From contig NZ_JAEFCF010000043.1 of assembly GCF_016405985.1 (NCBI RefSeq), positions 1 to 45,398 of the forward strand: a stretch of DNA of 45,398 nucleotides, in the 5' to 3' direction. Every line of letters starts with the position of its first letter. Positions within the stretch are counted from its first letter, which is position 1. The notes beneath the pieces were generated by a model. It did not search any database. It saw nothing but the letters and a program-made list of their open reading frames with translations, and was not told the DNA's origin. The stretch is from Paracoccus sp. IB05. GTDB taxonomy: Bacteria; Pseudomonadota; Alphaproteobacteria; Rhodobacterales; Rhodobacteraceae. Shown here in pieces: positions 29,056 to 38,394 of the stretch. The translations under genes were made by a program, and so were the position numbers.

Positions 29056-30036
29056 TCAGGCGGTGAAATACGGCGCCAGATTGGCACGCACCCGCGCCAG
29101 CGGCGTTTCACCCGAGCTGTCGGGGCGGAAGGTCTCGCCGGTGATCCGCTCAAAGGCGGCGATATAGACCTCAGCGGTCTGCGCGATCATTTCCGAAGGG
29201 ATGTCCGGCACCGGATCCTTATAGGGATCACAGCGCGCCGCGACCCAGGACCGGATCACATCCTTGTCGAAAGACGGCGGGCGGGCGCCGGTGGTCAGCG
29301 CTTCCTGATAGCCTCCGGCGATCCAGTAGCGGCTGGAATCCGGGGTATGGATCTCATCGGCAAGCAGGATCCGGCCCCGGTCATCCAGGCCGAATTCATA
29401 TTTCGTATCGACAAGGATCAGCCTGCGCTCTGCTGCGACCTTCTGGCCAAAGGCAAAGAGGGCCAGCGCCTTGTCCGAAACCTCATCCCATTGTGCCTGA
29501 GTGAGGAGCCCCTGGGCGACGATCTCCGCTGCCGTCAGCGGCTCGTCATGGCCGCCGTCAAAGGCCTTCGAGGTGGGGGTGATGATGGCCTCGGGCAGGG
29601 CCTCATTATCGCGCAGGCCATCGGGAAGGCGGTGGCCATACATCTCGCGCGCGCCGGCCTTGTACCGGGTCAGAACCGAGGTGGAGGTGGTGCCGGCGAG
29701 ATAGCCGCGCACGACGACCTCGACGGGCAGAATGCTGACATGGCGCCCGATCACGACATTCGGATCGGGATAGGCCACGACATGATTGGGACAGATATCG
29801 GCGGTGCGGTCGAACCACCAGCGCGCGGTCTGGGTCAGGACCTGGCCCTTCCACGGGATCGCCGCCAGAATGCGATCAAAGGCCGAAATCCGGTCCGAGG
29901 AAATCAGGATCCGCCGGCCGTTCGGGAAAACTGCATCTGCAGGCAGGTCGTAGCAGTCGCGCACCTTGCCAAAATAGGGCGAGGGCAGTTCCGGAATGCG
30001 CGCCTCGCTCAGCACGCGGGAGAGATCAATCGACAT
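29056..30036 (-). CDS. purC: SAICAR synthase
   Basis: Phosphoribosylaminoimidazole-succinocarboxamide synthase, a step of purine biosynthesis. The 326-residue protein is longer than the E. coli form (about 237) and matches the larger alphaproteobacterial and yeast-like type. Motifs are [41 protein letters not shown] and [14 protein letters not shown]. The start at ATG 30036 follows AGGAAGG, although the frame extends upstream. Confidence 0.95.
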
Positions 30037-30132
30037 ATGCGCCTGCCTTCCTCTGGTGACGCGGCTGCTATGAGCGCCGGGCGCGCCCATGTCAACGCCC
30101 GGAAGGGGGCGCTGCCCCCAGGCCCTTGCAGG

Positions 30133-30204
30133 GCCTCCCCCGGAGTATTTTGATCAAGAGGAAAAAGCCGGCTTCCTCTTGACCTAAATACTCCCGCCGG
30201 AGGC
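30133..30204. repeat. Large palindromic intergenic repeat
   Basis: A left arm (30133-30163, containing GGAGTATTTTGATCAAGAGG) and a right arm (30173-30204, containing CCTCTTGACCTAAATACTCC) form an imperfect hairpin of about 30 bp. The left arm recurs at 22156 and the right arm at 40280. It lies in the gap upstream of purC, downstream of the envelope operon, and could also end transcription. Confidence 0.75.
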
Positions 30205-30224
30205 GAAGGCTGGCAAAGCCCGGC

Positions 30225-31358
30225 TCAGTCCAGCCAGTCGAGCGCATTGCTGCCAATGCTGATATCGCCGTCCTTCATCAGATAGAGCACGGCGCCCGCA
30301 ACCAGGGCCGCCGCCACAGCCGCGAGTGCGATTTTCCAGACCGACCACGGGCGCTGGCCCTGGACTTCGCCGGTCTGGCCATTGACGAGGAACTGATAGC
30401 TTTTGCCGTTGTATTTATAGGCCGCCATCCAGATCGGCAGCATTATATGTTTGAAGGTTTCGCCACTGTAGTCGGTGTCGATGCCGGAGATCCGCTGTTC
30501 ATCACCGCCGATGTCGCGGCGCACATCGGTTTCGATCACGCGGGCCATTTTCTGCTTTGATTGCAGGCTCGCGGGTTCCAGCGGCACTGTATAGCCCTCG
30601 GCCGAGAACCCGGCCAGATAATCCGGCGCATAGGGGACAAGCCTGGTCAGATCCCAGGGATCGAGCTCATTCGCATAGCGCGCCGGAACGCTCAGCGAGG
30701 CCAGCACTCCGACATCATCGAAGTCGCGGGCGACGTGGCCTGAGACCGGGGTCCAGCGGATTTTGCGCTCCTGGCGGGTCTCGCGTTTGCCGTTCACCGT
30801 GACCGTGCGCGAGACGTAATAGGCGTCACCCCTGCTGCCGGAATAGCGTGAGCGGGTTTCGGCATCAAAGGTCCACCAGGGCACATAGACGCCGTTCATC
30901 GCCCGTCCGCGCCTCGTATATTCCAGCAACCGGTTCGGCGCGAACCAGAGCGAGCCGAGCCATTTCACCAGGGCTTCACGCGCCTCGCGTTCGGAAAGCA
31001 CGAAGGGGATCAGTGCCTGGGGTTTGATCTGCCTTGTCTCGCCGGTCGAGGTCACCACAGGTGTCGCACAGAAGGGGCATTCGGTGGCATGGCTGGCACC
31101 GATCATCTCGATCAGCGCGCCGCAGGAGGTGCAGCGCGTGGTCCGCACCACTTCCATCGCCGAAGAGGACAGATCGTCGGCGAGCCCTTTGGCGAGGTCA
31201 TGTTCGACCAGCGCCCGGTCCTGATCGGCGAGGGCGATATCGGGCAGGCGCTGGTGATTGCCGCAATGTTCACAGACCAGATCGCGCTGGCCCGGGGCAT
31301 AGCGCAGCTGCGCGCCGCACTGGCTGCAGGGCCAGCGGTGTTCTCCGAGGGCAGGCAT
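30225..31358 (-). CDS. Zinc-ribbon membrane protein (YdjG-like)
   Basis: A 377-residue protein. Two zinc ribbons lie at the N-terminus: residues 11-33 (CSQC with CEHC) and about 76-97 (CTSC with CPFC). A conserved middle domain follows (FVPWWTFDAETRSRY-like, here VYVPWWTFDAETRSRY). The C-terminus has one membrane segment (IALAAVAAALVAGAVLYLM, about 343-362) and a short outside tail. The layout matches B. subtilis YdjG, which sits next to an SPFH protein as here. It begins three bases after the SPFH gene. It is the last gene of the operon. The biochemical role is unknown. Confidence 0.8.
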   Translation of the reverse strand: MPALGEHRWPCSQCGAQLRYAPGQRDLVCEHCGNHQRLPDIALADQDRALVEHDLAKGLADDLSSSAMEVVRTTRCTSCGALIEMIGASHATECPFCATPVVTSTGETRQIKPQALIPFVLSEREAREALVKWLGSLWFAPNRLLEYTRRGRAMNGVYVPWWTFDAETRSRYSGSRGDAYYVSRTVTVNGKRETRQERKIRWTPVSGHVARDFDDVGVLASLSVPARYANELDPWDLTRLVPYAPDYLAGFSAEGYTVPLEPASLQSKQKMARVIETDVRRDIGGDEQRISGIDTDYSGETFKHIMLPIWMAAYKYNGKSYQFLVNGQTGEVQGQRPWSVWKIALAAVAAALVAGAVLYLMKDGDISIGSNALDWLD

Positions 31359-31361
31359 GGG

Positions 31362-32459
31362 TCAGCCTGCGGGCGGGGGCGGCGGCGGCAGATGCGAGAA
31401 GAGGCGGGCGAGTTCGGTCTCGACGGCGGGTTTCCAGCCCTCCATCCCCTGCGCCCAGACCATAGTGCCGCGTGCAAGCTGGCCCGATGCCGCGAGGCCG
31501 GAAAGCTGCGCTTCGGTATAAGGACCTTTGGTGGCGCCGTTTTCGGCAAGATGCCATTCCTTGCCAACCGGCGGCGGGGGCGGCGGTGCATGCGCGGCGG
31601 CTGCGGGCTGCGCCCCCCAGGGGCCCATATTCTGGGCCATGCCCATACCCATCGCCATGCCCGCCCCGGTCGCCATCGCCGAGCCGGCCCCCGAGGCAGG
31701 GTTGCCCATCGCCTCGGCCGCGTTGAACTGCATATATTTGTTCAGATCGCCCACCACACCCATCGAGGTGCGCTTGTCGAGCGCTTTCTCGACTTCTTCC
31801 GGCAGGCTGATGTTCTCGATATAGAATTCCGGAATGCTCAACCCGTATTCCGCGACTTTGGGGGTGATGGCACCGGCAATCAGCTTGCCAAGGTCTTCGG
31901 TATTCGCAGCCATATCCAGCACCGGGATCTGTGATCCCGCCAGCACCTGGCTTGCCGCCTGGACGATGATATTGCGGATCTGCACCGAGATCTCGTCGGC
32001 AGTGAATTCGCCATCGGTGCCGACGATTTCCGTCATGAATTTTCCGGGATCCGCGACCCGCATCGAATAGGTCCCGAAGGCCCGCAGCCGGACCGGGCCG
32101 AATTCGGGATCGCGCGCCATGATCGGGTTTTTCGTGCCCCATTTCTGGTCGTTGAACCGCGTGGTCGAGACGAAATAGATCTCGGATTTGAACGGCGACT
32201 GAAAGCCGTGATCCCAATGCTGCAGCGTCGTCAGGATCGGCATATTGTTGGTCTCAAGCTGATAGAGACCGGGGCCGAAGACATCCGCCAGCTGACCCTC
32301 ATGGATGAAGACCGCCGCCTGGCCTTCGCGCACCGTGAGTTTCGCGCCGTATTTGATCGCCTGGCCGCGGCGCTCAAAGCGCCAGACCATGGTGTCGCGG
32401 GTGTCATCGAGCCAGGAGATGACGTCGATAAACTCGCCCCTGAGGAAGTCGAAGACCAT
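31362..32459 (-). CDS. SPFH-domain protein with C-terminal GYF_2 domain (YdjI-like)
   Basis: A 365-residue protein. Residues 20-240 form an SPFH (stomatin/flotillin-like) domain with the YdjI/virion-core pattern (TVREGQAAVFIHEGQLADVFGPG). There is no N-terminal membrane segment, so it probably assembles at the membrane through partners. A Gly/Met/Ala-rich linker and a run of prolines follow. The last 60 residues are a GYF_2 domain (KEWHLAENGATKGPYTEAQL, MVWAQGMEGWKPA), which binds proline-rich partners. The start at ATG 32459 (MVFDFLRG) is chosen for family fit. It is coupled to the zinc-ribbon gene. Confidence 0.85.
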   Translation of the reverse strand: MVFDFLRGEFIDVISWLDDTRDTMVWRFERRGQAIKYGAKLTVREGQAAVFIHEGQLADVFGPGLYQLETNNMPILTTLQHWDHGFQSPFKSEIYFVSTTRFNDQKWGTKNPIMARDPEFGPVRLRAFGTYSMRVADPGKFMTEIVGTDGEFTADEISVQIRNIIVQAASQVLAGSQIPVLDMAANTEDLGKLIAGAITPKVAEYGLSIPEFYIENISLPEEVEKALDKRTSMGVVGDLNKYMQFNAAEAMGNPASGAGSAMATGAGMAMGMGMAQNMGPWGAQPAAAAHAPPPPPPVGKEWHLAENGATKGPYTEAQLSGLAASGQLARGTMVWAQGMEGWKPAVETELARLFSHLPPPPPPAG

Positions 32460-32615
32460 GGGTTCAGCCTTTCTGTCACGCGCGGGCCGGCGGCGCCGCA
32501 TCTGCCTTTGTCAAAATAGCGCGCATGCGCCCGGATTGAAGGGGAAATTTCGCCCGGCGGGGCCTGATGTCGCTTTGTTCATCGCTGATCCAGCCTGCAT
32601 CTTCCCGCGCGCCGG

Positions 32616-33341
32616 TCATGACGTGCCGCAGTCCGGAGGGAGGAGCCAGTCGCCCTCTGCGTTTTTGCCCATGAAATCGGCAAAAAGGGCGACGGTCTCA
32701 CCAGTGGCCGACCGCAGCCGCGCGACCGGATAGCCGCCATCGCCCCAGCCGGAGGATGCGATGGGAATCAAGGTTTTGTCGGGCAGAGGCAGGATATGGC
32801 CGACCACCCAGACTTCACCGATCATCCTGTCGAACCAGCCATTATAGAGATCTTTTTCCGGGCCGAGGATCCCGGCCGAGCGGGTCACGGCCGCTGCCAT
32901 GGATCTGTCGAAAAAGCCCGCAAGCCCGGTATCGACAGGGATTGTAGCAACATCATCGCCACAGGTCGGGGCGGCATCGGAAAAGACCAGCAGCGCCTTC
33001 GAGACGCGCCCTTCGTCCTGGTCAAGCGCCAGTAAAAACCGTGCCTCGCCGGCGGGCACCTCGATCCAGGGCAGATCCCAGGCGTCCGACCAGGTCAGCG
33101 GATCAACCGCAATCACCCCGCCCGGGGCGAGGGTGATCCGGCCCGCATCACGGAACTCAAGCGCGAAATCCGATTGCGCCTGCAACCAGCCAAGGCTGCC
33201 GGTCTGTGCGACCTCTGCCGGTGACATTTCAGCGCCTGGCGGCTGTTGTTCGGCCAGGAGCGCGTCTGGCACTGCTTCCTGCGCTTCGCCCGCGCCGGCC
33301 AGCAGCGCGGTCACGGTCAGAAGGCAGGAAAACCGGATCAA
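32616..33341 (-). CDS. DUF4241-like secreted protein
   Basis: About 241 residues beginning with a signal peptide (IRFSCLLTVTALLAGAGEA). The mature domain has ITLAPGGVIAVDPL, FLLALDQDEGRVSKA, PTCGDDVATIPVDTGLAGFFD and PIASSGWGDGGYPV, as in DUF4241. A TTG start at 33341 overlaps the previous stop (TTGA), giving the right signal peptide length and translational coupling; the ATG-initiated frame would begin inside the neighbour. The role is unknown. Confidence 0.7.
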   Translation of the reverse strand: MIRFSCLLTVTALLAGAGEAQEAVPDALLAEQQPPGAEMSPAEVAQTGSLGWLQAQSDFALEFRDAGRITLAPGGVIAVDPLTWSDAWDLPWIEVPAGEARFLLALDQDEGRVSKALLVFSDAAPTCGDDVATIPVDTGLAGFFDRSMAAAVTRSAGILGPEKDLYNGWFDRMIGEVWVVGHILPLPDKTLIPIASSGWGDGGYPVARLRSATGETVALFADFMGKNAEGDWLLPPDCGTS

Positions 33342-34297
33342 GCGCCACTCCCGAGCAGTCGTTGTGCGATGCGCCTCACCACCGGGACCGCTTCTGCCTC
33401 GGACATGCCCGGCCACAGTTCCGGATCATAAAGGATCTTCAGCATCAGCTCGTCCAGTTTGGTCAGGAGCGCGAATTCCTCGTCATCATTGAAGATCGAG
33501 GGCCGCGCGCGCGGGCTGTCATTGGCGAGCCCGAGGCCCTGCGCGATTTCCTCATGATAGCAGGATTGCCGCAGAAGATCGGGATGTTCGGCCCGGACCA
33601 CGGCCACCGCGCGGCGGTAATTGCCGCTGTCCCCGTCCGAGAGCGCATAGACGAGGCAATAGGTGGTCTGGGCCATGCCGGTCACATCGGCCACATCCTG
33701 GGGGCTGAGGCCGGGAAGCTCGCGGCGCAGGATGGGGCCAAGCTGTTCGCGCTCGTCTTCCGAGACGACATGCAGGGTGAAATTGCCGCCCTGATCGACA
33801 AGTGTGATCGGGTGGCCGGTCAGGCTGGCAAGGCGTTTGATATAAGAGGCGATCCGCGCGCGGTCGGTGGCGCGGCGCTCCTGGGGGACAGAGGCGCCGA
33901 ACTGGATCTGAAACCGGATCGGCACGTCCCAGCGGCGCAGGATCGACGCGGTTTCACCGCGCGCAAACGCCCCGCCGGCGCGACTGTATTCATCGTAAAG
34001 CGCTATGCGGATGAAATTTTCAGCGAGAATGCGGGCGTCGAAAGGCGTATCCACACCGCCGCCATCGGTACGCAGCAATCCCTGCGAGAGCAGCGCGTTC
34101 TGCACCTGGGCGTAATAGGCGCGGGCCGCAGCACTTTTCGGTGTCTCGGGCGTCACCGCGACCGGAACAGCGGGTCTGGGCGGCGGCGGGCCGATCCGTT
34201 GCGGCGCCTGGCCGCCCGAGGACACACAGGCGGAAAGGCCCGCCACCAGCAAGGTGGCAGGCCAGAGGGGCAGTCGCTGGCGCCGGGCTGGCGTCAT
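33338..34297 (-). CDS. DUF2927 family lipoprotein
   Basis: A 319-residue lipoprotein. The signal peptide ends in the lipobox VAGLSAC near residue 24, and a Pro-rich linker follows (IGPPPPRPAVPV). The DUF2927 core has TYCLVYALSDG and the C-terminal QSCYHEEIAQGLGLANDSP and SIFNDDEEFALLTKLD. The HEE segment resembles a metallopeptidase HExxH helix, but the second His is replaced by Gln, so activity is uncertain. Its ATG overlaps the telA-family stop (ATGA). Confidence 0.82.
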   Translation of the reverse strand: MTPARRQRLPLWPATLLVAGLSACVSSGGQAPQRIGPPPPRPAVPVAVTPETPKSAAARAYYAQVQNALLSQGLLRTDGGGVDTPFDARILAENFIRIALYDEYSRAGGAFARGETASILRRWDVPIRFQIQFGASVPQERRATDRARIASYIKRLASLTGHPITLVDQGGNFTLHVVSEDEREQLGPILRRELPGLSPQDVADVTGMAQTTYCLVYALSDGDSGNYRRAVAVVRAEHPDLLRQSCYHEEIAQGLGLANDSPRARPSIFNDDEEFALLTKLDELMLKILYDPELWPGMSEAEAVPVVRRIAQRLLGSGA

Positions 34298-35475
34298 GAT
34301 TGCGGCTGTGCGGCGGGCGCGGTGCTCCGCGCCCGGGCCGAAGCCAGCGTTTCGTGCAGATCGGTTTCCATCTTCTGCAGCTCGACCTCGGCAGCCGCGC
34401 GCCTTGCCTTGCCCTCATCGGCGATCTGCAGGCTTTCATTGATGGTGGCGATCAGCGTCTCATTCGCGTGTTTCACCGTTTCAATGTCGAAGACGCCGCG
34501 CTCCATTTCCTCGCGCACGGTGCGGTTGGCCTGCTGAAGGTTCTCGGCATTCGATTTCAACAGCTCATTCGTGAGATCATTGGCGTCGCGGATCGACTCG
34601 GCTGCCTCTTTCGACCGCTGGATCGTCACGGCCTGGGCGAGCTGCGTCTCCCAGAGCGGCACGGTGTTGACGAGGGTCGAGTTGATCTTCGTCACCAGCG
34701 ATTTGTCGTTTTCCTGCACCAGCCGGATCGAGGGCAGAGACTGCATCGTGACCTGGCGGGTCAGTTTCAGATCATGCACCCGGCGTTCCAGATCATCCCG
34801 CGCCGCGCGCAGATCGCGCAGCTCCTGCGATTTGATCATCTTGTCATTCTCGGGTGCAGCCGCGACCTCGGCCTCTTTCGCGGGGATAGAGGTGGTATCG
34901 GTCTCTTTCAGCTTGGCCTCGCCTGCGGCGATGTAAAGCCCCAGTTCGTCATAGAAATTCAGGGTTTTTGCATAAAGCAGGTCCAGCGATTTGATGTCTT
35001 TCAGAAGCTTCGTCTCATGGCCGAGCAATTCGCCCGTGACCTTGTCGATCTGGCTCTGGACATCTTCATATTTCGCAACGAAATCCGCGAAAGGCGCAGC
35101 GCGGCCCAGCAGACGCTCCCACCACGAGCTTTCGCGGCGCAGGTCCAGCTCATCGGTCGAGAAACCGCGAATGGTGGTGACGATTTTGCGCAGGCTGTCG
35201 CCGGCCGGGCCGACATCCTTGTTTTTCACGTCCTGCAACATCTCCTGAGAGATCACCTGCAATTCAGCCTGGGCCGAAGAGCCGAACGAGATGATCGACT
35301 GGGTGTTGGTCAGATCCAGCTCGCCCATGCGCTTTTCAATCGCCGCGGCCTTGTCGGGCGAGGCGGATTCCAGGGGCACGATTTCGCCCGTCGGTTCCGG
35401 CAGGATGACAGCGGTGACCTTCTCGACCTCGGCCAGGGTGGCCTCGGCGGCGGCGCGGGTGGTGTTCTCGGTCAT
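34294..35475 (-). CDS. TelA-family toxic anion resistance protein
   Basis: A 393-residue protein that is largely helical and coiled-coil. It shows the TelA pattern of long helices: ELDLTNTQSIISFGSSAQAE at residues 45-70, LLGHETKLLKDIKSLDLLYAKTLNFYDELGLY near 155-190, QSLPSIRLVQENDKSLVTKI near 265, and LPLWETQLAQAV-like TVPLWETQLAQAVTIQRSKE near 290. Family members confer resistance to tellurite, nisin or cell-envelope agents in some bacteria, by an unknown mechanism. It lies 15 bases behind the XpaC gene and overlaps the DUF2927 gene. Confidence 0.92.
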   Translation of the reverse strand: MTENTTRAAAEATLAEVEKVTAVILPEPTGEIVPLESASPDKAAAIEKRMGELDLTNTQSIISFGSSAQAELQVISQEMLQDVKNKDVGPAGDSLRKIVTTIRGFSTDELDLRRESSWWERLLGRAAPFADFVAKYEDVQSQIDKVTGELLGHETKLLKDIKSLDLLYAKTLNFYDELGLYIAAGEAKLKETDTTSIPAKEAEVAAAPENDKMIKSQELRDLRAARDDLERRVHDLKLTRQVTMQSLPSIRLVQENDKSLVTKINSTLVNTVPLWETQLAQAVTIQRSKEAAESIRDANDLTNELLKSNAENLQQANRTVREEMERGVFDIETVKHANETLIATINESLQIADEGKARRAAAEVELQKMETDLHETLASARARSTAPAAQPQS

Positions 35476-35490
35476 GGCAAAATCTCACAC

Positions 35491-36405
35491 TTAGGAAGGG
35501 TTGGAGCCGGAAGGCGTCTCGAATTTCAGCCGGTCCCGCAGCACGGAAATCTCGATATCGAGAGTGTCGCGGTCATTGCCAAGCAGGCGTTCCGAGCGGC
35601 TGGCAAAGGTGGTTTCCAGATCGGTCAGCAGCTGTTCATAGTCTTCGCGCGCCTTCGGATCGGGGCGGATGGCCCAGAGATCGGCGAATTTCACCGTCGC
35701 GTCGCGGGCGCCTTCCAGGTAAACGGTCAGATAACGGCGCGCGGCGGTCAGATCGCCGGGATCTTCCTCGACCCTTTGCATGAGCCCTCTTGTCTGGCCG
35801 ATGAAACGATCAACCCGGGCCTCAAGCTGGCGGTCGCGGGCGCGCAGGATCGCGTCTTTCATCTGCGCGAGCGTCTTCTCGGCCCCGGCCAGGGCACGGG
35901 CGACGCGGTCGGTCTGAAAACGGTCGACGCCCTCCATCCCCTTGTCGGTCCAGGGGTCAAATCCGAAGGCGCCAATATGCAGCCCGGCCCCGGCGAGACC
36001 GAAGAGGATCGGGTAAAGCGAGACGCCATGCCCGATCAGCCCGCCGGTGAACAGCGCGGCCCCGGTGGCGATGGCGCCGAACAGGATGCGCGGGATCGCG
36101 GGGCGGCGCGCGACCCGGCGGGCGTCATAGGCCGCACGGGCGCGCATGCCCTCGCGGGTGAGCCAGGCGCTCAGGATCAGACAGCCGCCTGCGATCAGGC
36201 TTAAAAGCATCGCGCCAGGCTCTTCGCCGAAAGCGGGGAAGAGGAAGACAAAGGCCGAGAGGAAGAGGAATGTGGCGCGCCAGCCACCTGCCGGCTTTTC
36301 CATCCCCGGGGCCGCGCGCGGAACTGGCGGTTGCGGGCCAGAGCCCGATCCGGTCGGTCGGGTGCCGTCAGGGCTGAATTTCCCGCCAAAGCGCTGAGCG
36401 GCCAT
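35491..36405 (-). CDS. XpaC-family membrane protein
   Basis: A 304-residue protein. After a 40-residue Pro/Gly-rich cytosolic leader come four hydrophobic segments in two pairs (ATFLFLSAFVFLFPAF, AMLLSLIAGGCLILSAWL, ILFGAIATGAALFTGG, LYPILFGLAGAGLHIGAF). A soluble helical domain follows (ARALAGAEKTLAQMKDAILR, RRYLTVYLEGARDA). This is the layout of XpaC, which is often encoded beside TelA. The start at ATG 36405 follows GGGAGGAATGTG. It overlaps the stop of a 27-codon upstream frame by one base (TGATG). Confidence 0.88.
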   Translation of the reverse strand: MAAQRFGGKFSPDGTRPTGSGSGPQPPVPRAAPGMEKPAGGWRATFLFLSAFVFLFPAFGEEPGAMLLSLIAGGCLILSAWLTREGMRARAAYDARRVARRPAIPRILFGAIATGAALFTGGLIGHGVSLYPILFGLAGAGLHIGAFGFDPWTDKGMEGVDRFQTDRVARALAGAEKTLAQMKDAILRARDRQLEARVDRFIGQTRGLMQRVEEDPGDLTAARRYLTVYLEGARDATVKFADLWAIRPDPKAREDYEQLLTDLETTFASRSERLLGNDRDTLDIEISVLRDRLKFETPSGSNPS

Positions 36406-36488
36406 CACATTCCTCCCGAACCGGCGACATAGAAAACAAGGGCGATCAGAATCGCCAGCGAGAGGGTGCGCAGGCCGGATTCGGACAT
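36405..36488 (-). CDS. 27-residue single-span membrane microprotein
   Basis: A frame too short for usual gene calling starts at ATG 36488 and ends with the TGA at 36405-36407, just over the XpaC start. The peptide begins MSESGLRTLSLAILI and continues ALVFYVAGSGGM. Its middle (LSLAILIALVFYVAG) is a single predicted membrane helix, with Arg on the N-terminal side and a Gly-rich end. The TGATG overlap with xpaC suggests coupled translation. Only a weak ribosome-binding site (GGAA) precedes it. It could instead be a leader peptide for the operon. Confidence 0.6.
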   Translation of the reverse strand: MSESGLRTLSLAILIALVFYVAGSGGM

Positions 36489-36948
36489 TCTGGGTTCCGG
36501 AAATAACGGTCGGTTGCCGCAATCCTAGCGAATGGATCTGCCGCTTGCCAGTCTGAGACAGGGCATATGCGCGGGAATCTTCCGCCCGAATTCCCGGTTG
36601 TGTCTGGCCCGCGCCCTTCTGTGCGCGGTCAACCGGATCCCTGATGCCGCGATGCGGCATGGAGGGCAGGGCATTCTGGCATCCCCGCCTGGGAAGTCAG
36701 GCCACCCCGCCGCGGCAATCCCTTGATGTCGCGTGCTTATTGGTCAGGTCTCGCATCGCATCGCGGCGCCAGATGCCCGGGGCCGCGCACAAATGTACAG
36801 GCAGGCCGCATCCTGGCTGCCCGGTCGCAGGGCAGGAACCCTCCAGGCTGCGCGGTGCCTCCCATAGCGAGCGGGGTGCGAGGCTCAGAGCACGGGAAAC
36901 TGCGCACGGGAAACTGCGCGCGCGAAACACGCGCACATCCTTTATGTT
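36489..36948. other. Intergenic region between the envelope operon and rluB
   Basis: No gene is visible. The region should hold the promoter of the leftward microprotein-XpaC-TelA operon, though I find no strong -35/-10 pair. It also contains a 14-base tandem repeat (CACGGGAAACTGCG at 36891-36904 and 36905-36918) just beyond the rluB stop, with a degenerate third copy. Confidence 0.5.
36891..36918 (+). repeat. Tandem repeat of CACGGGAAACTGCG
   Basis: There are two perfect 14-base copies, followed by a degenerate copy (CGCGAAACACGCG). It lies about 30 bases past the rluB stop codon. No function is apparent. Confidence 0.7.
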
Positions 36949-38394
36949 CTATCCTTTGCGACCCGGGCCGCCGCGGCCGGAAGGACCGCCGGGCCTGGTG
37001 GGGCCGCCGGGCCTGGTGGGGCCGCCGGGCCTGGTGGGGCTGCGCGAGGTGTGCGCGCCGGTGGTCGCCGGTGCATTGCGGGTGCTGACGAGTTTCGGGG
37101 CGCGCGGTTTGCGCGGCGCTGACCGTTCAGAGACCGGGTCAGCACCGGCAGATGCCGTCCAGCGCTTTGCCGCGCCCGGAGCCCGGTCGGGGCGCGCGGC
37201 GTCGCCCGGGCCGCGTGCGGGTGGTTTCGGCTGATAGGAACTCCCGCCAGAGCCCTCGCTGTCTTTGCGCCCGGCAGCTTCCGCCCGGTGGGTAAAGTAT
37301 TCGCGTGCGGTAAGGCCAGATTTCCGCCTGGCGCTGGCCGGTTTTCCGGCCGCCTCGGTGGATGCAGCGCCGGTTGCGCGCGACGCAGGGGAGGCCGTGC
37401 GTGGGCCCCTGTCCGTGGCCGGAGGCCCCGATCTGCTCGCATTCGCCGGTCTGTCAGAGCTGGCGGCTCTGGTCGCACTTGCGGATCTGACGGGACGCGC
37501 AGCGGGAGAGGCCCGTTCGGCCCCGGCGCGATCGGTTTTGCCCGCTGCTGGTGTTCCCGGTACTGGTTTTCCGGCCCGCACCCGCGTCATCGCAGGGCGC
37601 TTGCGGGGGGCTTCTGCTGCCGCCTCGTCCGCCGCGATCTCGCCGAGCTGGTCGCGCAGCACGCGGGCCTTGACCTCTTCGACCTGACCCGGTTCCAGAC
37701 TTCCCAGCCGGAAGGGGCCGTAAGAGACCCGGATCAGCCGGTTCACATAAAGGTCGATGGCATTCATCGCGCGGCGGATCTCGCGGTTTTTGCCCTCGCG
37801 CAGACCCACGGTCAGCCAGGCATTGGCACCCTGCTGACGGTCGATGGTGACCTGCATCGGCTTGAACCGCTCGCCCTCAATGGTGATGCCATCGCGCAGG
37901 ATCTGCAGTTTCAGATCATCGGCCTGACCATTGACGCGAACCCGGTATTTCCGCAGCCAGCCGGTCGAAGGCAGTTCCAGCCGCCGTTTCAGCCCGCCAT
38001 CATTCGTCAGCAGCAAAAGCCCCTCAGAATTAAGATCGAGCCGCCCGACCGACATCACCCGCGGCATATCCTCGGGGAGGTGGTCGAAAACGGTGTCGCG
38101 GCCTTTTTCGTCGGATGCGCTCGTCACAAGCCCCTCGGGTTTGTAGTAAAGCCAGAGCCGCGCTTCTTCCTCTTCGGGCAGCAGCCTGCCGGAAATGGTG
38201 ATGCGCTCGGTTCCGGTCACGTTCAGCGCCGGGCTGGTGATGATTTTGCCATTGACGGTGACTTCGCCCGCCTCAATCAGCCGCTCGGCCTCGCGCCGCG
38301 AGGCGACGCCCCGGCGCGACAGCAGCTTGGCAATGCGCTCGCCATCGGGCGTTCCATTCGGGTCCCGGGCGGGAGGACTTGTGTTTTCCGGCAT
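36949..38394 (-). CDS. rluB: 23S rRNA pseudouridine synthase, RluB type, with long basic tail
   Basis: Modifies uridine in helix 89 of 23S rRNA if it acts like E. coli RluB. The 481-residue protein has an S4 RNA-binding domain (RIAKLLSRRGVASRREAERL, residues 20-75) and the RluB/E/F catalytic domain with VGRLDLNSEGLLLLTNDG carrying the catalytic Asp. LREGKNREIRRAM and FRLGSLEPGQV follow. From about residue 270 the rest is a low-complexity tail rich in Ala, Arg, Pro and Ser, ending in three tandem TRPGGP units. Family members are usually near 290 residues, so the tail is an extension. The start at 38394 (MPENTSPPA) is chosen over the longer frame. Confidence 0.9.
   Translation of the reverse strand: MPENTSPPARDPNGTPDGERIAKLLSRRGVASRREAERLIEAGEVTVNGKIITSPALNVTGTERITISGRLLPEEEEARLWLYYKPEGLVTSASDEKGRDTVFDHLPEDMPRVMSVGRLDLNSEGLLLLTNDGGLKRRLELPSTGWLRKYRVRVNGQADDLKLQILRDGITIEGERFKPMQVTIDRQQGANAWLTVGLREGKNREIRRAMNAIDLYVNRLIRVSYGPFRLGSLEPGQVEEVKARVLRDQLGEIAADEAAAEAPRKRPAMTRVRAGKPVPGTPAAGKTDRAGAERASPAARPVRSASATRAASSDRPANASRSGPPATDRGPRTASPASRATGAASTEAAGKPASARRKSGLTAREYFTHRAEAAGRKDSEGSGGSSYQPKPPARGPGDAARPDRAPGAAKRWTASAGADPVSERSAPRKPRAPKLVSTRNAPATTGAHTSRSPTRPGGPTRPGGPTRPGGPSGRGGPGRKG
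36986..37039. repeat. Three perfect 18-bp tandem repeats in the rluB tail
   Basis: CCGCCGGGCCTGGTGGGG occurs at 36986, 37004 and 37022 and encodes repeated Thr-Arg-Pro-Gly-Gly-Pro units on the minus strand. Exact identity at the DNA level suggests recent slippage, and the copy number may vary between strains. Confidence 0.9.

Follow-up and report, generated by a model that had tools for sequence, protein, structure and literature searches.

A conserved operon unites two membrane-stress gene sets in most of the Rhodobacter-family bacteria sampled

In Bacillus subtilis, sigma-W is reported to drive both xpaC-yaaN and pspA-ydjGHI (PMC3498285). A membrane-stress role was shown for pspA-ydjGHI in this species (PMC8581546, PMC11237479), and YdjI, YdjG and YdjH are described as required for the membrane localisation of PspA (PMC8581546). 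XpaC and TelA have been linked to membrane stress as well: L. lactis cells overproducing a membrane protein were partly impaired by deletion of llmg_1115/1116 (XpaC-TelA) (PMC3139573), and the susceptibility of a mutant in lmo1967 (TelA) is recounted to increase 4-fold to nisin and 2-fold to tellurite (PMC12791056). TelA and XpaC are widespread stress proteins.

Here, we analysed a window of 45,398 nucleotides from Paracoccus sp. IB05 (contig NZ_JAEFCF010000043.1), in which seven leftward genes occupy 30225..36488 (Table 1). The seven genes of the original prediction, with their coordinates and junctions, were all borne out by reading the sequence. The microprotein gene overlaps that of XpaC by 1 base at 36405, XpaC and TelA are separated by 15 bases, and the TelA/DUF2927 and DUF2927/DUF4241 junctions each overlap by 4 bases, with the DUF4241 start codon at 33341. 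A gap of 156 bases precedes the SPFH start at 32459, and 3 bases separate SPFH from the zinc-ribbon (ZnR) gene. Pfam searches of the window identified Halogen_Hydrol/XpaC (E=6e-26), TelA (E=8e-107), DUF2927 (E=1e-63), DUF4241 (E=1e-7), Band_7_1 (E=6e-103) and GYF_2 (E=7e-17). Since a consensus scan of 29800-37200 found no sigma-70-like promoter (a negative result of little weight in this group), and since the 7 terminator-like sites there compare with 5.1 ± 2.3 in shuffles, it is from gene spacing alone that we infer a single transcription unit.

Table 1. Features of the operon in the Paracoccus sp. IB05 window.
Feature	Position	Strand	Evidence
Microprotein (micro), 27 aa, single TM	36405..36488	-	micro profile matches
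XpaC-like membrane protein, 304 aa	35491..36405	-	PF10112
TelA, 393 aa	34294..35475	-	PF05816
DUF2927 protein, probable lipoprotein, predicted metzincin fold	33338..34297	-	Pfam and model
DUF2927 residues 246-260, where metzincins have the helix and turn with HExxHxxGxxH	33518..33562	-	sequence mapping
Secreted DUF4241-like protein of 241 aa, start codon TTG; accessory, occurs sporadically	32616..33341	-	Pfam
SPFH (Band_7_1) with C-terminal GYF_2, 365 aa	31362..32459	-	PF13421, GYF_2
Double zinc-ribbon protein (ZnR), one C-terminal TM-like stretch, 377 aa	30225..31358	-	Cys clusters, hydropathy

Conservation was followed in 121 genomes of the family, which hold 119 TelA loci, and in 80 named loci of relatives. 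TelA is near-universal (119/121 genomes), and micro, XpaC, TelA, DUF2927, SPFH and ZnR are complete in that order in 93 of the 119 loci; this tally counts matches only where they share TelA's strand, which drops the ZnR of one locus (L127). Such recurrence is beyond chance. Most sampled members of the family thus keep an operon that unites two membrane-stress gene sets known separately in Bacillus-type bacteria, which supports the original prediction in its joining of the TelA-XpaC and SPFH-ZnR pairs. XpaC (PF10112) lies inside 112/119 TelA loci. SPFH and ZnR are both present in 117 of the 121 genomes and both absent in the other 4, with Band_7_1 over cut-off in 117/121, and in one locus (L140) the two are fused as one ORF. 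In three genomes from three genera (G011, G085, G106), XpaC, SPFH and ZnR are absent and TelA is gone or a fragment, while a fourth (G081) keeps XpaC-TelA and has neither SPFH nor ZnR. The cluster is also parted in places: micro-XpaC has moved away from the TelA locus in 6/6 genomes of genus g7, ZnR is located elsewhere in 6/6 genomes of genus g8, and in G048 SPFH and ZnR lie together (L213) on a different contig from TelA. Two of the relocated ZnR matches (G101, G069) cross one in-frame TGA. The gap between SPFH and ZnR holds a cytochrome b561-like cluster, named by eye, in 30 loci, plus isolated genes; since its contents are mixed, we dropped the idea of a functional slot there.

The microprotein gene was listed in the original prediction, which did not describe its conservation. 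A single search rule found it ahead of XpaC in 111/112 loci; applied to the stretch before other operon genes, that rule found a micro-like ORF in just 0-8 of 102-119. The micro profile matches in 111/119 TelA loci, the microprotein occurs in 73/73 further named loci holding XpaC, and it travels with the relocated XpaC in 6/6 loci. Its pooled dN/dS is 0.17 (58 pairs). These results show that the microprotein is a real gene under purifying selection. At about 27 residues, it is an easily overlooked membrane protein.

XpaC has two TM-like stretches followed by the PF10112 domain. TelA has no TM-like stretch and is predicted to form long helices. Its structural model is middling (pLDDT 74.7; four others range from 60.7 to 65.2), and a fold search with this model gave no match at E<=0.001 and neither PspA nor ESCRT-III among the 50 matches listed, which are varied long-helix proteins (axoneme proteins, BAR domains, helical pore-forming proteins and designed bundles). 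A sequence search against solved structures returned helical matches for TelA, mostly cytochrome b562 fusions among the 60 listed of 299 (best E=0.0012), which we took as chance. The SPFH-GYF protein also has no TM-like stretch, and the same type of search yielded for it a single weak match, to the GYF part. ZnR matched no Pfam family over cut-off and gave two weak matches to solved structures. Its two CxxC...CxxC clusters (C11/C14/C29/C32 and C76/C79/C94/C97) are each conserved in 95% or more of the 103 sequences aligned, and hydropathy places the TM-like stretch at residues 338-363.

DUF2927 is probably a lipoprotein, as judged from its sequence: C24 is invariant in 55/55 sequences, and a simple lipobox pattern matched in 144/198. 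It gave no match at E<=1 in a sequence search against solved structures, and our literature search on the family returned no paper. In a Foldseek search with its model (pLDDT 89.4), the best 50 of 852 matches at E<=10 were all PDB entries of matrix metalloproteinases (MMPs); 2 of these 50 reached E<=0.001, and TM-scores were mostly ~0.6 by target length and ~0.34 by query length. DUF2927 is thereby predicted to have a metzincin fold, a likeness absent from the original prediction that gives this family a structural hypothesis. The motif HExxHxxGxxH forms the zinc site of metzincins. When residues are mapped by sequence, DUF2927 has EExxQxxGxxN in its place, the ligand positions read E249/Q253/N259, and the expected Met-turn carries SIF and no methionine. 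HEExxQxxGL occurs in 188/198 sequences, and E249, E250, Q253 and N259 are invariant in 55/55. Since the usual zinc ligands are absent, DUF2927 would bind rather than cut. The original prediction counted DUF2927 among the outer members that belong with TelA. This was upheld at the locus, where the gene is found in 115/119 cases (it is ~11 kb away in L044), and was weakened elsewhere: 3 loci that are complete in all else lack DUF2927, 2 of the 3 genomes with TelA lost or broken still have it, and most genomes carry further copies elsewhere.

Outside the Rhodobacter family, a phylum sample gave a TelA match in 36 genomes, and 30 loci from 29 of them were examined, the 7 with short or weak matches being left out. 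The family's own profiles found no DUF2927, ZnR or microprotein in these 30 loci, XpaC in 6 and SPFH in 1; such absences are weak evidence because the same profiles missed many distant TelA proteins. With Pfam, the 29 genomes have 5 strong Band_7_1 places, on another contig or ~130 kb from TelA, and a sole DUF2927, on another contig than TelA. One outside locus alone (L179) has an XpaC-TelA-SPFH-like/GYF arrangement, its Band_7_1 match falling below the curated cut-off.

By analogy, the best reading is that a YdjI/YdjG-type SPFH platform would work with TelA-XpaC where Bacillus uses PspA. PspA is present in only 41/121 genomes and outside the operon; where it shares a contig with TelA, the closest copy is ~20 kb away, and in the window's genome PspA is on contig C35 and TelA on C46. 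ZnR would hold the soluble SPFH-GYF protein to the cytoplasmic face of the membrane as a ring or platform, in the way that YdjG/YdjH anchor YdjI in Bacillus subtilis. Recruitment of the long, helical, cytosolic TelA, the putative effector, onto stressed membrane would fall to this platform and to the micro-XpaC membrane pair, TelA taking the place held by PspA in Bacillus. DUF2927 may act in the periplasm as a sensor or a tether, and DUF4241 would be an optional add-on. We consider it evenly balanced whether the operon protects the inner membrane independently of PspA, as a core system of the family in which TelA is recruited in this way. A more extended proposal, a PspA-free trans-envelope membrane-repair complex core to the family, with TelA on the SPFH-ZnR platform, micro-XpaC gating and the pseudo-metzincin lipoprotein as periplasmic link, is tentative and on balance unlikely.

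Of the original prediction of a single seven-part machine, the joining of the pairs in one conserved gene cluster was supported, TelA, XpaC, SPFH and ZnR being lost together in three genomes, and the membership of DUF4241 was not. By its own profile, which covers the fetched loci, the DUF4241-like gene is sporadic, in 10/119 loci and 0/80 named loci, and Pseudogemmobacter hezensis, the closest named relative, lacks it between flanks that are 82% identical; we therefore rejected it as a core gene. The count of 10 may be low, since L102 holds a diverged relative that scores E=0.08 with the own profile and stays under the Pfam cut-off. What speaks for an integral DUF4241 is its position, always between DUF2927 and SPFH (10/10 loci), with three tandem copies in L040. 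With Pfam, which covers whole genomes, 8 of 11 matches also occupy this slot, but the other 3 lie elsewhere and on another part of the profile. A machine with DUF4241 as an integral part is thus very improbable.

A less remote alternative, possible if rather doubtful, is that micro-XpaC with TelA, DUF2927, and SPFH-ZnR are three separate modules, each protecting the envelope alone and adjacent through one stress promoter. The separations in g7, g8 and G048 and the XpaC-TelA retained alone in G081 fit such modules. The separations and G081 also count against one system, as do the loci without DUF2927 and the TelA-less genomes that retain it; with its middling model, the TelA fold search lends that system no support. 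In addition, xpaC-yaaN and pspA-ydjGHI are reported as separate units of one B. subtilis regulon (PMC3498285). Separate modules sit poorly, however, with the threefold joint loss and with the stable order. The name of TelA would instead point to resistance to tellurite or toxic oxyanions, and a review names telA among the chromosomal tellurite-resistance determinants of R. sphaeroides, citing O'Gara 1997 (PMC6955997). We find this improbable: nearly every sampled genome of the family has TelA, Pfam assigned none of the core genes to a reductase, transporter or thiol enzyme family, and the Firmicutes relatives are tied to membrane-active peptides and membrane-protein overload in the accounts available (PMC12791056, PMC3139573). 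In the membrane-protection reading that we favour, TelA-XpaC would have concrete partners in the SPFH platform, the microprotein under selection and the lipoprotein of metzincin-like fold, for which Rhodobacter sphaeroides offers tractable laboratory strains.

Compared with described systems, the operon shares adjacent XpaC and TelA families with the reported Firmicutes operons xpaC-yaaN, llmg_1115-1116 and lmo1966-1967, whereas here a conserved TM microprotein precedes the pair and DUF2927, SPFH and ZnR follow it. The model of DUF2927 matches the catalytic domain of metzincins/matrix metalloproteinases, and the protein differs from these in lacking both the zinc motif and the Met-turn methionine and in being a probable bacterial lipoprotein. 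Set against the YdjGHI-type phage-shock (PSP) system, the operon has an SPFH protein of the Band_7_1 family that lacks TM stretches and, at the level of architecture, an adjoining TM partner with two zinc ribbons and an extra domain, as reported for B. subtilis pspA-ydjGHI. In contrast, it encodes no PspA, and no YdjH/TPM family was found among the window's operon genes (Pfam, E<=0.5); TelA-XpaC and DUF2927 are present instead, and the SPFH protein carries a GYF domain where YdjI has a reported C-terminal zinc finger (PMC8581546).

The seven leftward genes of the operon and their junctions, as first described in the window, were borne out by sequence reading and Pfam. The operon is confirmed as an observation, and the interpretation given in the original prediction is partly supported. 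The host belongs to the Rhodobacter family, and among the matches listed Pseudogemmobacter hezensis has the closest named TelA, at 93% identity (the window's own genome was possibly left out). Among 121 genomes sampled from the order, all of which fall in one family, TelA was found in 119 (the copy in genome G085 is a fragment), DUF2927 in 120 and XpaC in 118; Band_7_1 scores above the cut-off in 117, and 11 have DUF4241 at E ≤ 0.001. One region was fetched per genome, giving 120 and the window; the 120 comprise 117 in which TelA is intact, the one holding the G085 fragment and two taken from genomes without TelA, and the tally of 119 TelA loci includes the window and the fragment.

The order microprotein-XpaC-TelA-DUF2927-SPFH-ZnR is kept in 93 of the 119 TelA loci, with other genes sometimes interspersed. 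ZnR is missing in the same orientation in a further 14 (some cut by contig ends), the microprotein and XpaC in five, DUF2927 in three and the microprotein alone in one, and three are less complete than that. The 80 named loci, several of which are short contigs, contain TelA (80), DUF2927 (80), SPFH (78), XpaC (76), the microprotein (76) and ZnR (71). A second XpaC-like gene lies closely upstream of the microprotein and XpaC in loci L057, L077, L081, L082, L090, L127, L251, L264, L267, L270 and L296, and in L044, which has no microprotein match, about 11 kb separate TelA from DUF2927.

Positions of the operon in the window and of selected arrangements in fetched loci
Locus	Positions	Direction	Content
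Window	30225-36488	leftward	seven-gene operon
L040	7019-8897		three DUF4241-like genes in tandem, flanked by DUF2927 and SPFH
L145	4134-4835		233-aa ORF without Pfam match, between XpaC and TelA
L179	1888-8927	all one direction	XpaC-TelA-SPFH-like/GYF, a 201-aa gene, three SLT lytic-transglycosylase genes

The original prediction envisaged a single envelope machine of seven parts. The comparison of TelA neighbourhoods upholds the six-gene core, which co-occurs in order, but not the DUF4241-like gene as an integral part. With a profile built from the family's own sequences, this gene was found between DUF2927 and SPFH in only 10 of the 119 loci, window included, and in none of the 80 named loci. 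Genome-wide, eight of 11 Pfam DUF4241 matches lie in this slot, and the other three lie elsewhere and fall on a different part of the profile. In P. hezensis, both flanks match at 82% and the DUF4241-like stretch of about 0.8 kb is absent. The DUF4241-like gene is an accessory with a preferred slot.

A profile seeded from 111 loci found the microprotein at 117 places within 2.3 million bases; of these, 111 belong to TelA loci and six to the six genomes of one genus with a relocated XpaC. By an automatic test, 116 of the 117 lie directly before XpaC; the exception, in L207, is inside an over-extended XpaC ORF and was counted as before XpaC too. Because the seeds had been picked beside XpaC, controls were needed. 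The same seed rule succeeds before XpaC in 111 of 112 loci, before TelA in 0/119, before DUF2927 in 4/115, before SPFH in 8/116 and before ZnR in 2/102. Reversed ORFs gave three matches at E ≤ 0.5 (best 0.037). Among 77 named loci not duplicating the first set, XpaC is present in 73 and the microprotein in those same 73. The pooled dN/dS is 0.17 (58 pairs, 75-97% DNA identity), and in 110 of 111 loci the microprotein stop has an XpaC-frame start codon at a distance of -4 to +4 bases. L044 is the sole TelA locus with XpaC but no microprotein match. No description of a microprotein beside XpaC was found in the operon literature among the matches listed.

ZnR is present in 103 of the 121 fetched regions. 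A genome search of 20 genomes found it elsewhere in all 14 other SPFH-bearing genomes (in G101 and G069 the match crosses one in-frame TGA) and did not find it in the four SPFH-less genomes G011, G081, G085 and G106. In three of these four, XpaC and an intact TelA are missing as well, and G099, of the same genus as G106, keeps the whole operon. The set probabilities for the joint absence are 1e-7 to 1e-5 with relatedness ignored. In G048, SPFH and ZnR lie side by side (L213) on a different contig from TelA, and in L140 they form one ORF, in which the GYF stretch is missing by eye. The joint presence and absence, the joint relocation and the single ORF support a physical partnership, which SPFH and ZnR would form. 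Between the two, 30 loci carry a membrane gene identified by eye as cytochrome b561-like.

DUF2927 was labelled a probable lipoprotein since C24 is invariant (55/55 sequences); a simple lipobox pattern matches 144 of 198 sequences, a shortfall that perhaps comes partly from over-extended ORFs. For its AlphaFold model (pLDDT 89.4, pTM 0.83), the 50 best of 852 PDB matches (E ≤ 10) are all matrix metalloproteinases; among the matches listed, two reach E ≤ 0.001 and the TM-score is mostly about 0.6 by target length and about 0.34 by query length. The conserved motif C-x-HEE-x-x-Q-x-x-GL-x-ND falls on the helix formed by residues 240-255 and on the turn that follows. The metzincin zinc motif is HExxHxxGxxH; from a sequence alignment to it, we take E249, Q253 and N259 to occupy the positions of the three zinc ligands, with E250 presumably retaining that of the catalytic glutamate. 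HEExxQxxGL was read in 188 of 198 sequences, and the EExxQ pattern also occurs in three paralogues elsewhere (5 of 20 loci readable). DUF2927 is predicted from the model to be metzincin-like and may bind another metal. No paper naming the family was found in the literature search; the microprotein and the putatively metzincin-like DUF2927 are two elements without prior description among the matches listed.

TelA matches occur in 50 of the 299 phylum genomes; 36 of the 50 fall outside the Rhodobacter family, and 30 loci from 29 of these 36 were compared. Only L179, from a genome of another class, shows a related arrangement, and for this reason the full set appears to have originated in the Rhodobacter family, as judged with own profiles that missed many distant TelA proteins. 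Among 13 TelA loci on viral contigs, seven (L297-L303, some of them near-identical to each other) have XpaC immediately upstream of TelA; in L298 the pair is followed by SNase- and NADAR-domain genes.

PspA (PF04012) was found in 41 of the 121 genomes (40 above the cut-off), including the window's own (contig C35 of G000), so that of the 118 genomes whose TelA is intact, 77 have no PspA match. It is never in the operon among the 41, and the nearest copy on a contig shared with TelA is about 20 kb away. The portions of the literature available, among the matches listed, contain no experiment on this operon. As far as the extracts of the cited papers go, L. lactis without XpaC-TelA grows more poorly under membrane-protein overproduction (PMC3139573), xpaC is 7-fold up in an E. 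faecium liaR mutant (PMC10269926), and an XpaC-like gene is broken along with others in bacteriocin-resistant L. lactis, its role being uncertain (PMC7864038). Extracts on B. subtilis report that bringing PspA to the membrane requires YdjI, YdjG and YdjH (PMC8581546) and that xpaC-yaaN and pspA-ydjGHI, both under Sigma-W control, are separate units (PMC3498285). In the operon, TelA-XpaC would stand in the effector place. What forms two separate units in Bacillus is joined here in one operon, without PspA.
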